A stretch of DNA of 43,641 nt from Pseudoflavonifractor sp. 60 (GTDB lineage: Bacteria > Bacillota > Clostridia > Oscillospirales > Oscillospiraceae): the NCBI RefSeq assembly GCF_009911645.1, contig NZ_QWKI01000035.1, positions 1 to 43,641 of the forward strand, given 5' to 3'. A program made the position numbers and the translations under genes. The notes under the pieces were generated by a model. That model was not told the DNA's origin. It did no database searches and saw only the letters and a list, made by a program, of their open reading frames with translations. This document shows positions 1,846 to 4,815 of the stretch, one piece after another. Each line of letters starts with the position of its first letter. Within the stretch, counting starts at the first letter, position 1.

Positions 1846-1868
1846 GGGAATTTCCTCCTAAAAGTTAT

Positions 1869-1931
1869 GATTCTTTTGGGAGGTCGGCCTTTGGGTGCAA
1901 ACCTCCCGGTTTAACCCGCAAGCACCGAATC
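1869..1931 (-). promoter_or_regulatory. Predicted pseudoknotted leader RNA
   Basis: On the minus-strand transcript three stems can form. P1 pairs GAUUC (1931-1927) with GAAUC (1873-1869). P2 pairs GGUGC (1926-1922) with GCACC (1898-1894). P3 pairs GGGAGGU (1907-1901) with ACCUCCC (1884-1878). P2 and P3 interleave, giving an H-type pseudoknot closed by P1. The 3' strand of P3 contains CCUCC, which can instead pair with the gene's own ribosome binding site GGAGG (1858-1854). This permits a simple switch between ribosome-site exposure and occlusion. It matches no riboswitch class that I recognise. The structure is inferred by hand pairing only. Confidence 0.45.
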
Positions 1932-1997
1932 AAAATAATTTTTCATGGATGTTCCTCAATTCTAACTGTTATTGTTGTGCCGGCCACAACGTGACGT

Positions 1998-2026
1998 ATT
2001 ATAGCATAACTTCAAATTCTTTGCAA
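1998..2026 (-). promoter_or_regulatory. Promoter of the RNHCP gene
   Basis: On the minus strand TTGCAA (2026-2021) is separated by exactly 17 bp from a consensus TATAAT (2003-1998). The -10 box overlaps the stop codon of the upstream GNAT gene. Transcription would start near 1990, leaving a leader of about 145 nt before the RNHCP ATG. Confidence 0.75.
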
Positions 2027-2568
2027 TACCGTAAATCTGTCAAAAGAGTTTCCGGTGTCAGCGTTACCTCCAGGCTGTGCCCGTCCCAGATGAAGTCCAG
2101 TGTTTCATAGAAGCGTCGGGCGCGGTCATTTTCCCGGAGAACATAGAGAAAACAGCCGGGATAGCCCTGCGTGCGCAGACGGCGGAGGACTTCCTCCATC
2201 ACAATGGAGCCGTACCCCTGCCCCCAACAGCCTGGGTGGGTGTAGAGGGAGACCAGTTCCCCCCAGGCGGCCAGGTCAGGGGAGCTGAAGGAACAGATGG
2301 TGTCGCCGGCGCTCTGGTCGACCCGAGCGGGACCATAGGTGGCGCAGCACAGGGGCCGGCCTGCCGAGTAGAGGAGGAGTCCGTGATAGACGCCCTCCTC
2401 CGCATTGTTCCGAAACACCGGGACCCACCGGTCATCAGTAATTTCCCGGGACATATAGTCCGACGGAATGCTGTCTTGATAGGCGGCGCGCCAGCCCAGG
2501 GCGTGAAGGAGGGACATATCCCGGAAGTGCTCCTCTGTGCAGGCGTCAATCAGCTGAAATTGCTCCAT
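1999..2568 (-). CDS. GNAT family N-acetyltransferase
   Basis: A 189-residue single-domain protein of the Gcn5-related acetyltransferase family, which moves an acetyl group from acetyl-CoA to an amine. The core is at residues 104-121: strand beta-4 ELVSLYTHPG is followed by the acetyl-CoA pyrophosphate loop WGQGYGS. Then come helix IVMEEVLRRLRTQGY, strand CFLYVLREND and motif B RARRFYETLDF. This order is standard for the family. The substrate cannot be predicted. A GAGGTGAT ribosome binding site precedes the ATG at 2568. The P-II-like gene upstream on the same strand is separated by a hairpin terminator, so this gene probably has its own promoter or depends on read-through. Confidence 0.88.
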   Translation of the reverse strand: MEQFQLIDACTEEHFRDMSLLHALGWRAAYQDSIPSDYMSREITDDRWVPVFRNNAEEGVYHGLLLYSAGRPLCCATYGPARVDQSAGDTICSFSSPDLAAWGELVSLYTHPGCWGQGYGSIVMEEVLRRLRTQGYPGCFLYVLRENDRARRFYETLDFIWDGHSLEVTLTPETLLTDLRYCKEFEVML

Positions 2569-2616: not shown

Positions 2617-3279
2617 TCACAATCGAACAATTTGTTCAATGGGCAGAGAGCAAAGCGCCGCCTGCGCCTCACTGCGCAGACCGTGTTGGGCGTTGATGGC
2701 CTCCATAATGGGGGCGCGCAGAGCGGTGGGGACCACAATGGCTACAATTTCCCGCTCGGCTTTCAGCTCCACCTCATAGGCCTGCTCCAACTCCTTCCGC
2801 CCAGACAGGCGGCCTTTAATCACCGTTCCTCCCCGGGCACCGTGGGCTTTGGCGGTGGACATGACGTCATCCGTGCAGCCCCGGGCGCATACTACCAAAA
2901 TCAAACTGTTTTCCGTTCGTTCCATCTCAGTTTCCCCCTTTTCTTTCAAATTTTCGGCGTGATAGGCGGCCAGGTTGGCGACCAGACTGTTCAGTCCGGA
3001 TACGGGGATGGATACCACAATGCCGGCTCCGCCGGTATGGCCCCGCAACTCGTTATCCAGGTCATGGAGCAGCTTTCGGGCGGCAGAGGCGGCGGCAAAG
3101 CTGATAAGCACGTCCTTTTCACTGGAGCCCAGGCCCAGGATGTCCATGATCTCCGAGGTGGCGGTGCCTTTTCCGGAGCACTGGATGTGAATGGGCACAT
3201 AGCGCTTTCGGTACAGCCGCAGCATGGCGGCGCCCTGGCCCCGCTCTACAATAGAGAGGATCACTTTCATCTGTTCCAT
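2617..3279 (-). CDS. Tandem P-II-like regulatory protein
   Basis: A 220-residue protein with two P-II/GlnB-like halves, twice the length of a classic P-II monomer (about 112). The first half (residues 4-105) has MKVILSIVERGQG at its start, a GKGTATSEIMDILGLG segment in the position of the P-II effector loop, and EKDVLISFAAA. The second half (about 119-220) begins SLILVVCARGCTDDVM and has GARGGTVIKGR and REIVAIVVPT. P-II folds bind nucleotides and small metabolites and control partner membrane proteins by docking. Here the natural partner is the DUF1538 protein encoded 15 bp upstream on the same strand, and this gene pairing recurs in clostridia. The canonical uridylylated tyrosine loop is not evident. 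An AGGAGG ribosome binding site lies 8 nt before the ATG. Confidence 0.8.
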   Translation of the reverse strand: MEQMKVILSIVERGQGAAMLRLYRKRYVPIHIQCSGKGTATSEIMDILGLGSSEKDVLISFAAASAARKLLHDLDNELRGHTGGAGIVVSIPVSGLNSLVANLAAYHAENLKEKGETEMERTENSLILVVCARGCTDDVMSTAKAHGARGGTVIKGRLSGRKELEQAYEVELKAEREIVAIVVPTALRAPIMEAINAQHGLRSEAQAALCSLPIEQIVRL

Positions 3280-3294
3280 ACAAATTTCCTCCTC

Positions 3295-4815
3295 TCAGTC
3301 AAAATAGAGGATCATATCCTCGACCCGGTCCATGCGGGAGCGCAGGCGGCGGCGGGCCAGCTTGTGGCGCACGATGCTGAGCAGACCCATCACCTGGATG
3401 GTGACCAGGGGGGTCATAGCCACCATTGCCACAATGCCGAAGGCGTCCACCATCATGTTGCCTCCCAGGGCGTGGCAGGCCCCCTGGGCAAAGGGGAGCA
3501 GGAAGGTGGCCGTCATTGGCCCGCTGGCCACGCCGCCCGAGTCGAAGGCAATGCCGGTAAAGATGTTGGGTACCAGGAAGGACAGCCCCAGAGAGATGGC
3601 GTAGCCGGGAATCAGGAGCCAGAAAATATTCAGGCCGGTGAGTACCCGTACCATAGCCAGTCCCACCGAGACGCAGACGCCGATGGACAGAGCCAGTCCC
3701 ATGGCCCGGTGGGAGATGGAGCCGTTGGAGACCTCCTCCACCTGCTTGGTGAGGACGGCCACGGCGGGCTCCGCCTTGACGATGTAGTAGCCGATGAGCA
3801 TACCGATGGGGATCAGAAGCCACTTCTGGCCGCCGGAGGCGATGGTGGCCCCGATGAGCTGGCCGGCGGGCATAAAGCCGGCGTTGACGCCGCACAGGAA
3901 GAGGACCAGGCCCACGTAGGTGTACAGCAGTCCCAGCCCGATACGGAGCAGCTGGCCCCGTCTGAAGCGGCGGGTGAGCAGCTGGAAGACCAGAAACAGC
4001 CCGGCCACCGGGAGCAGAGCCATGGCCACATCCTTCAGGTAGGTGGGGAAGGAGCCTGCGAAGTACTGGGCCGCGTAGGCGGTGGTGGAGATGGTGGGGA
4101 TGTCGTTGAGGGAGGAGGTTGCCGGCTCAGGCAGGTAGATGATGCCCAGCAGCAGTACGCACAGGATGGGGCCAATGGAGCACAGGGAGATCAGGCCAAA
4201 GCTGTCGCTGGCGGAGTTGCTGTCGCTGCGGGTCGAGGCGATGCCCAGACCCAGAGACATGATAAAGGGGACGGTAATGGGGCCGGTGGTGACGCCGCCG
4301 GAGTCGAAGGAGACCGGGATGAAGTTGCCCGGCGCCAGGAAGGCCAGGAGGAAGACCAGGCCGTAGAAGAACAGCAGCAGCCGCCGCAGAGGAAAGCCCC
4401 AGCGGATGCGCAGGGTTGCTGTCACCAGGAACAGGCCGACGCCCACCGCCACGGTGAGGATCAGAACCCGGCTGGGGATGGCGGACACCTGCTTGGCCAG
4501 CACCTGGAGGTCGGGCTCCGCCATGGTGGTAAGTACGCCCAGGAGGAAGAAGACCAGAATGGGCAGGAACAGTCCCTTTCGCTTGCTGAGGACAATGCCG
4601 ACCCCCTCCCCCATGGGGATCATGGACATATCCACGCCCAGGGTAAACAGCCCCATGCCGCCCACCAGCAGGATAGCGCCAAAGAGGAACAGTACCAGCG
4701 TCCCCGGGTCCAGAGGGGCGATAGAGATGGACAGCAGAAAGACGATGGCGGTGATGGGGAGCACCGAGGACATGGACTCCTGGATCTTTTCCATCAGTTG
4801 TTTGTTGAGGTGCAA
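3295..4815 (-). CDS. DUF1538 polytopic membrane protein
   Basis: A 506-residue, highly hydrophobic protein with at least 12 predicted transmembrane segments, matching the DUF1538 family, which is a presumed transporter or channel of unknown substrate. It is an internal duplication. FDSGGV occurs at residues 170-175 and 425-430, each followed by a (T/S)GP(I/M)T motif. AEPxxxVLxKQV occurs at about 99-110 and again at about 348-359. Paired glycine-rich re-entrant motifs of this kind suggest an inverted-repeat or pseudo-dimeric transporter. The start appears to be TTG at 4815, preceded by a G-rich segment (GGGGGCGGAG); the internal ATG at residue 8 has no ribosome binding site. A TATAAT-like -10 box at 4852-4857 (minus strand) lies upstream without a clear -35. 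The P-II-like gene follows 15 bp downstream. Confidence 0.85.
   Translation of the reverse strand: MHLNKQLMEKIQESMSSVLPITAIVFLLSISIAPLDPGTLVLFLFGAILLVGGMGLFTLGVDMSMIPMGEGVGIVLSKRKGLFLPILVFFLLGVLTTMAEPDLQVLAKQVSAIPSRVLILTVAVGVGLFLVTATLRIRWGFPLRRLLLFFYGLVFLLAFLAPGNFIPVSFDSGGVTTGPITVPFIMSLGLGIASTRSDSNSASDSFGLISLCSIGPILCVLLLGIIYLPEPATSSLNDIPTISTTAYAAQYFAGSFPTYLKDVAMALLPVAGLFLVFQLLTRRFRRGQLLRIGLGLLYTYVGLVLFLCGVNAGFMPAGQLIGATIASGGQKWLLIPIGMLIGYYIVKAEPAVAVLTKQVEEVSNGSISHRAMGLALSIGVCVSVGLAMVRVLTGLNIFWLLIPGYAISLGLSFLVPNIFTGIAFDSGGVASGPMTATFLLPFAQGACHALGGNMMVDAFGIVAMVAMTPLVTIQVMGLLSIVRHKLARRRLRSRMDRVEDMILYFD

Follow-up and report, generated by a model that had tools for sequence, protein, structure and literature searches.

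The ermC attenuator has a four-segment arrangement. A ribosome stalled on the short leader ORF (ErmCL) rearranges the mRNA and exposes the next Shine-Dalgarno (SD) sequence, the control is translational, and the controlled gene encodes an rRNA methyltransferase (PMC10219788). In Listeria hflXr/rli80 and in uORFC-6-1 before hflX, a structured leader ORF with an RLR motif precedes a gene for ribosome splitting or rescue; the uORFC-6-1 motif is placed mostly in Bacillales, the hflXr attenuator is induced by lincomycin and erythromycin, and rli80 controls transcription via a terminator (PMC6310831, PMC8632094). The account of toiL, from E. coli topAI-yjhQ, describes an SD that is masked by the leader ORF and unmasked by the stalling caused by several drug classes, and proposes a response to stalling anywhere within the ORF, including the start codon (PMC12121999). 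Tetracycline exposure of Streptomyces is reported to act through the WblC/WhiB7 transcription-factor regulon, in which one RsgA paralogue out of two is activated along with several GNATs and further factors of the ribosome (PMC7157823).

The window analyzed here (the whole stretch of 43,641 nt) carries, at 1417-1845 on the minus strand, a gene for a 142-aa protein of the RNHCP family (Pfam PF12647, E 4.3e-40; 136 bits against a cut-off of 24). We interpret the leader of this gene as a leader-ORF translational attenuator with ribosome pausing as the sensor, at a probability of about 0.82. It would resemble ermC in its short leader ORF and in the exposure of the next SD by a stalled ribosome, the Listeria leaders in the structured leader ORF, and toiL in the masking of the SD and its release by stalling. 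The kind of mechanism is already known, and the leader family is in neither Rfam nor the open-access literature searched. In our best reading, ribosome-stress genes are controlled by a new family of translational attenuators that work through a leader ORF. From anatomy and covariation the leaders probably form a widespread attenuator family, one absent from Rfam release 15, and a ligand riboswitch is improbable.

A consensus scan placed the promoter at 1998-2026 on the minus strand (TTGCAA at 2026-2021, 17-bp spacer, TATAAT at 2003-1998 with an extended -10; 10/12), and a comparable arrangement is readable in eight relatives (L001-L008). If transcription starts about 7 nt past the -10 box, the RNA 5' of the RNHCP start codon would measure about 146 nt, in agreement with the consensus promoter and the leader of about 145 nt proposed in an earlier reading of the letters alone (hereafter the sequence-only reading). 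Where the RNA should begin, the fold of the window leader has a small hairpin, GUUGUG-GCCGG-CACAAC (1974-1990, minus strand), and a like hairpin was seen by eye at the equal place in L001-L005 and L008; it may protect the mRNA. The SD of RNHCP is GGAGG at 1854-1858 (minus strand). No terminator-like site was found within 1400-2100, so the switch is most likely translational, unlike rli80. Immediately upstream of the RNHCP promoter lies a GNAT acetyltransferase gene (1999-2568, minus strand; Pfam), and the part that codes for its C-terminus can be recognised in several of the relatives L001-L008; by eye it is of another type than the leader-carrying GNATs described below. Further upstream, at 2617-4815 (minus strand), the gene for a DUF1538 membrane protein adjoins an ORF without Pfam match at E 0.001, which by eye resembles two repeated halves.

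Reading of the minus strand revealed a leader ORF at 1911-1946, MKNYFDSVLAG-stop, with its own SD GAGG at 1957-1954 and with equivalent ORFs in relatives. Three helices, supported by covariation, can form around its end. Hairpin P1 (elements 1:2; 1884-1928, minus strand), also seen in the minimum free energy (MFE) fold, takes in the end of the leader ORF including the stop codon, a GGGA loop at 1907-1904 and a 3' arm. Hairpin P3 (elements 3:4; 1854-1883, minus strand) pairs CCUCCCAAAAG (1883-1873) with CUUUUAGGAGG (1864-1854) and locks the RNHCP SD. P1 and P3 belong to the OFF state. Helix P2 of the ON state (elements 2:3; 1878-1907, minus strand) pairs GGGAGGU (1907-1901) with ACCUCCC (1884-1878) and is incompatible with both P1 and P3. 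ACCUCCC can thus pair either with GGGAGGU or with the GGAGG of the RNHCP SD (1858-1854), the competition that the sequence-only reading had noticed; its proposal of a cis-regulatory RNA acting on translation through this competition is supported, while the leader ORF (1946-1911), the hairpin at 1928-1884 and the SD-locking hairpin at 1883-1854 had escaped it. The MFE fold of the window leader is the OFF fold (-42.5 kcal/mol, z -1.95), an energy equalled by 8 of 200 shuffles and hence only modestly above chance, so that the case rests on conservation.

In the proposed mechanism, P1 would form when no ribosome is present, CCUCCC would pair with the RNHCP SD in P3, and RNHCP would be off. Once a ribosome had moved to the last codons of the leader ORF, it would cover element 2 (GGGAGG), P3 would form, and RNHCP would again be off. 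Only a ribosome held at D6-L9 of MKNYFDSVLAG would keep P1 open and GGGAGG free; the free GGGAGG would capture CCUCCC in P2, P3 would be blocked, and RNHCP would be translated.

RNHCP loci were collected by a tblastn-confirmed scan, and the best 80 of 558 kept candidates together with the window gave 81 leaders. The layout of leader ORF, GGGAG, CCUCC, GGAGG and start was found in 53 of them and the element was absent from the other 28; the count of 53 was reached from 54 motif rows after removal of L028, which has its GGGAG 268 nt upstream and no ORF. All 53 motif-bearing leaders contain a leader ORF of 10-20 codons, with a scored SD in 49 of 53, that is, a short ORF with its own SD, as in attenuators, whose translation is predicted. 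An alignment of 52 leaders (A1) was built without L078, which has a large insert between P1 and P3 and was omitted from the ribosome models too. Its invariant letters fall within CGGGAG, CCUCC, the start codon and the SD, whereas the segments that join these differ in length; the leaders were picked for containing GGAGG, the RNHCP SD that is invariant across all 52. Among the window and its eight close relatives, at least 8 of 9 pairs are kept in the P1 core and 10 of 10 in P3.

The pairing of each leader's own arms was better than that of shuffled arms among the 53 leaders (P1 z -12.4, P2 inner -5.5, P3 inner -7.2; 0/5000 shuffles each). A non-redundant test was also performed, for which 12 of 126 leaders without exact CCTCC and GGAGG were excluded and then 54 of 114 as too alike (at least 80%), leaving 60 (RNHCP 39, RsgA 14, GNAT 4, other 3). 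Shuffling within families gave a similar result (P1 z -11.0, outer P1 -6.6, P2 inner -6.2, P3 inner -7.1; 0/3000 each). On A1, 87.5% of the P1 cells and 96.5% of the P3 cells are paired, with changes on both sides in 3 of 10 P3 pairs. For the whole OFF structure the proportion is 92.8%, compared with 88.9% in shuffled alignments (0/500), which remove the relatedness among leaders only partly, and with 38-57% when the structure is slid. Cells changed on both sides number 34 in the OFF structure (0/500 shuffles), and the number of OFF pairs so changed is 7, a value reached by 56/500 shuffles and therefore not beyond them. The nine P2 pairs are paired in 87.8% of cells (2/500), with 16 cells changed on both sides (4/500) and 3 such pairs (reached by 387/500); the six core pairs of P2 hardly vary because they are tied to the SD sequence. 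P1, P2 and P3 all co-vary, and as in attenuators the helices exclude one another and the SD is sequestered in one of them.

Covariance models were then used to search five genome sets, which overlap and three of which include the genome of the window. With model R1, 29 of 391 class genomes had a match at E <= 0.01, and 21 of the 40 genomes in one family had one at E <= 0.001. With model R2, which was built from 83 matches, the yield was 37 of 391 class genomes at E <= 0.01 and, at E <= 0.001, 30 of 67 in one order and 20 of 398 across the phylum. Two match places (G410:C16 and G306) were left out of the fetched loci. The gene that follows the leader was sorted by simple protein motifs in 128 leaders (L108, L110, L113, L116 and L117 left out), and it is RNHCP in 72, of which 53 come from the targeted set. 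An RsgA-like GTPase follows in 32 and a GNAT in 15; the remaining 9 are other, broken or unsorted and include a SAM methyltransferase (L149) and an RsgA missed by the motif (L148). Three RsgA leaders (L175-L177) and one GNAT leader (L183, E 0.0095) were added later by reading. Pfam confirmed RsgA_GTPase and GNAT in one full-length example each. The RsgA-like and GNAT leaders occur in the phylum of the window, and for RsgA additionally on a plasmid of Cetobacterium somerae (L187, Fusobacteriota; E 7.5e-5). The rsgA leader of Peptoclostridium acidaminophilum DSM 3953 (L184) reached only E 0.057, yet its sequence shows a leader ORF as well as a compensatory GGGAGA:UCUCCC. Reading led us to reject the weak matches L113, L116, L117 and L178-L182 as members of the leader family, L182 being a weak second match in the window's own genome, and a weak match beside RNHCP (L172) was dropped as well.

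All six genomes checked with an RsgA leader (G090, G226, G263, G385, G485 and G737) have a canonical RsgA and a weaker-scoring second copy behind the leader, which identifies the regulated RsgA as a paralogue; two genomes with the leader before RNHCP (G000 and G152) have one RsgA copy over the cut-off each. The set of genes recalls the WblC/WhiB7 regulon, although that is a transcription-factor regulon, whereas here a shared cis leader is found. It also differs from ermC, whose gene product is an rRNA methyltransferase rather than RNHCP, an RsgA-like protein or a GNAT. A further difference from ermC is that the stop codon of the leader ORF precedes element 2 in 53 of 72 RNHCP leaders and in 15 of 15 GNAT leaders; the ORF reads through element 2, often as REVC, in the remaining 19 of 72 RNHCP leaders and in 31 of 31 RsgA leaders. 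In both layouts, GGGAGG lies under the ribosome, or just behind it, when translation of the ORF comes to its end.

The effect of ribosome position was modeled by folding the RNA downstream of a ribosome, with free RNA from P-site +15. In the window, the predicted probability that the SD is open is 1e-5 for ribosome-free RNA. It rises to 0.35-0.74 when D6, S7, V8 or L9 occupies the P-site and is about 0 at A10-G11, so the positions predicted to open the SD are D6-L9; the open zone moves by about one codon for ribosome edges from +12 to +16. This restriction to codons 6-9 in the model contrasts with toiL, for which a response to stalling at any position of the ORF is proposed. The model was run over 122 leaders (RNHCP 71, RsgA 31, GNAT 15, other 5), 4 of 126 having been left out for want of a recognised SD. 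The median predicted probability is 0.0016 without a ribosome, 0.08-0.18 with the P-site at -24 to -15 nt from GGGAGG, and at most 0.0003 from -12 on. When element 2 was blocked in the model, opening was abolished, with medians of at most 0.0001 at every ribosome position. GNAT and RsgA leaders are predicted to open from about -30, with higher medians in the absence of a ribosome (0.005 and 0.018, respectively). The predicted opening is partial. It exceeds the ribosome-free state more than 10-fold in only 79 of 122 leaders, with reclosing predicted in 118 of 122 after the ribosome has advanced, and both in 77.

The leader peptides were compared over 127 leaders; L147, whose leader ORF was mis-picked, was excluded here and from the motif, ribosome-model and non-redundant counts. 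An acidic codon at -20 to -15 is present in 93 of 127; I/S/L comes after it in 88 and V/A in 91, and E/D-I/S/L-V is the commonest peptide pattern; the window is among the 34 leaders without the acidic-codon pattern. The acidic codons are GAG (60), GAT (32), GAA (1) and GAC (0). Inspection of the leaders by eye shows CUC opposite GAG and AUC opposite GAT. This codon bias and the pairing indicate that RNA pairing accounts for much of the acidic pattern. The idea of E/D-I/S/L-V as a conserved arrest peptide was therefore set aside, as the codons look constrained by the RNA and not by the peptide. None of the 127 leaders contains the arrest motifs RLR, IFVI or IAVV, in contrast to the hflXr/uORFC-6-1 and ermC-type leaders; 23 of 127 have the less strict R/K-x-R/K, in one of them within the switch zone. 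Upstream of P1, third positions account for 56 of the 98 differences counted among close RNHCP leaders and for 63, 43, 69, 46 and 36% in five other groups, and nonsynonymous changes exceed synonymous ones in 4 of 6 groups (pairwise counts, which are not independent). The third-position excess supports translation of the leader ORF, not a fixed arrest peptide, as judged from these substitutions.

The sequence-only reading had combined three stems into a closed H-type pseudoknot and suspected a ligand switch of a new class. All three stems are possible in the window sequence, and stem 3 is identical to P2; as a functional fold the pseudoknot is doubtful, since stems 1 and 2, whose 5' strands lie inside the leader ORF (1946-1911), are poorly kept. 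Among the eight close relatives stem 1 is complete in one, stem 2 in one and stem 3 in all eight, and over 51 distinct leaders the paired cells amount to 47% and 69% for the halves of stem 1, 55% for stem 2 and 96% for stem 3. Covariation was found for stem 3 (P2), together with P1 and P3. A translational riboswitch, in which a bound metabolite would favour P2 or the pseudoknot and so release the SD, would be served by alternative helices that include the SD, and the three stems taken jointly do beat shuffles (73.4% of cells against 69.8%, 0/500, and likewise 0/500 for the covariation score; 34-57% when slid), although related sequences can do so without structure and stem 3 contributes much of the excess. 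As the sequence-only reading had stated, no known class is recognised: Rfam gave no match to the window at the gathering score (the best sub-threshold hit, E 1.1, was a microRNA on the other strand), and the sole match in 12 related loci was a tRNA, which would leave room for a new class. On the other hand, no conserved unpaired core suggestive of a ligand pocket was seen outside the helices in the leader alignment, all 53 of the 53 leaders in the set have a leader ORF whose end serves as one arm of the switch, and three unrelated protein families stand behind one leader type. That the leader-ORF end is a switch arm points to the ribosome, not a metabolite, as what is sensed. With stems 1 and 2 poorly kept and Rfam without a match, the riboswitch was set aside as the main reading, and we consider it very improbable.

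The leader ORF might report whether translation takes place at all (the initiation rate) and not a stalled ribosome, which would suit switch-arm codons constrained by the RNA; two RsgA leaders, L105 (0.44) and L148 (0.56), are predicted to be about half open without a ribosome, so that absent translation could also switch the gene on in some RsgA leaders. However, the window (1e-5) and the median RNHCP leader (0.0002 to 0.0004) are predicted to be closed in that state, and loss of translation would not switch them on, which makes this reading unlikely. The same RNA anatomy would equally fit an attenuator that responds to amino-acid starvation, with the ribosome stalled by uncharged tRNA. But no amino acid dominates the predicted open zone (DSEL, TLEI, NKMDS, NKAES, DSVS and many others), and to judge by their families none of RsgA, GNAT and RNHCP is a biosynthetic gene, so we give starvation very little weight. 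Finally, a regulatory protein might bind the leader, or the gene might be autoregulated in the way of ribosomal proteins, with the leader ORF secondary. A shared binding factor is conceivable, given the fusion of RsgA and RNHCP in two genomes and the match of the RsgA-like protein to RsgA of 30S biogenesis, yet the leader precedes three unrelated protein families and the third-position excess upstream of P1 is that of translated sequence; the chance of such a protein-based control appears slender. Under the leader-ORF attenuator, we infer that ribosome stalling is the signal. Its cause would be a ribosome-targeting drug or similar stress, with ribosome-targeting antibiotics the likeliest; such a drug as the inducing cause has slightly better than an even chance. 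The switch would be a ready-made reporter, since the stress could be identified from a compound that activates it.

No biological paper under the name RNHCP was found in the open-access literature, where the only two matches to the name were in chemistry. A 22-row alignment of RNHCP has 27 invariant positions, seven of them Cys. A first structure model was poor (pLDDT 58), and the second (pLDDT 78) had no match in the PDB at E <= 0.001, so the fold yields no function; the sequence, too, has no convincing solved relative. The RsgA-like protein matches solved RsgA chains of 30S biogenesis. In two genomes, an RsgA GTPase with a C-terminal RNHCP domain is encoded in one ORF (L168:1420-2973 and L169:1423-2760, both minus strand); the leader model found nothing at these two loci. 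Among the 28 RNHCP genes without the leader (window plus best 80 of 558), reading of the loci places 14 behind a gene of MarR type and 6 behind one of Mor type, with two of each confirmed by Pfam. A Streptomyces plasmid has two RNHCP genes followed by an FBP_C protein, which we take to be the zinc-finger part of FusB-type proteins. The presence of the switch before a ribosome-linked GTPase as well suggests that RNHCP helps cells cope with blocked ribosomes, and the shared ribosome-sensing switch and the RsgA-RNHCP fusion give a concrete hypothesis, in which RNHCP would be a ribosome-stress factor acting with RsgA. Tentatively, and at somewhat less than even odds, one attenuator family may wire scattered ribosome-stress genes (the cysteine-conserved RNHCP, a second RsgA and GNAT) across the phylum of the window and, in the case of RsgA, on a plasmid of Fusobacteriota, with RNHCP and the RsgA paralogue rescuing or re-maturing drug-blocked 30S subunits, as HflXr and FusB protect their targets.

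Several further loci were recorded during reading. When the window leader DNA was searched against plasmids, one 36-base match to a Lactococcus plasmid was obtained (E 0.3); the L149 leader had no match among plasmids, and viral contigs contained no exact match to one leader pattern. In two genomes (L179 and L180), a weak covariance match outside the family has a hairpin of the SD-locking type before a transposase-like ORF, as judged by eye. RsgA-type leaders without a full gene directly behind them (L160, L163 and L164) are perhaps decayed loci or have a misplaced start. The two RsgA leaders of one genome (L108 and L110) are devoid of P1 and element 2 and keep TAEIV and an SD-locking hairpin, a simpler, cat-like layout; their predicted opening at I9-V10 is small, up to 0.11. 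The RsgA-like gene of Acetoanaerobium noterae (L186:1400-1500) has a different leader ORF, MKKFTNNLVVFV, and other inverted repeats before the SD by eye, and is perhaps preceded by an unrelated attenuator on the same gene.
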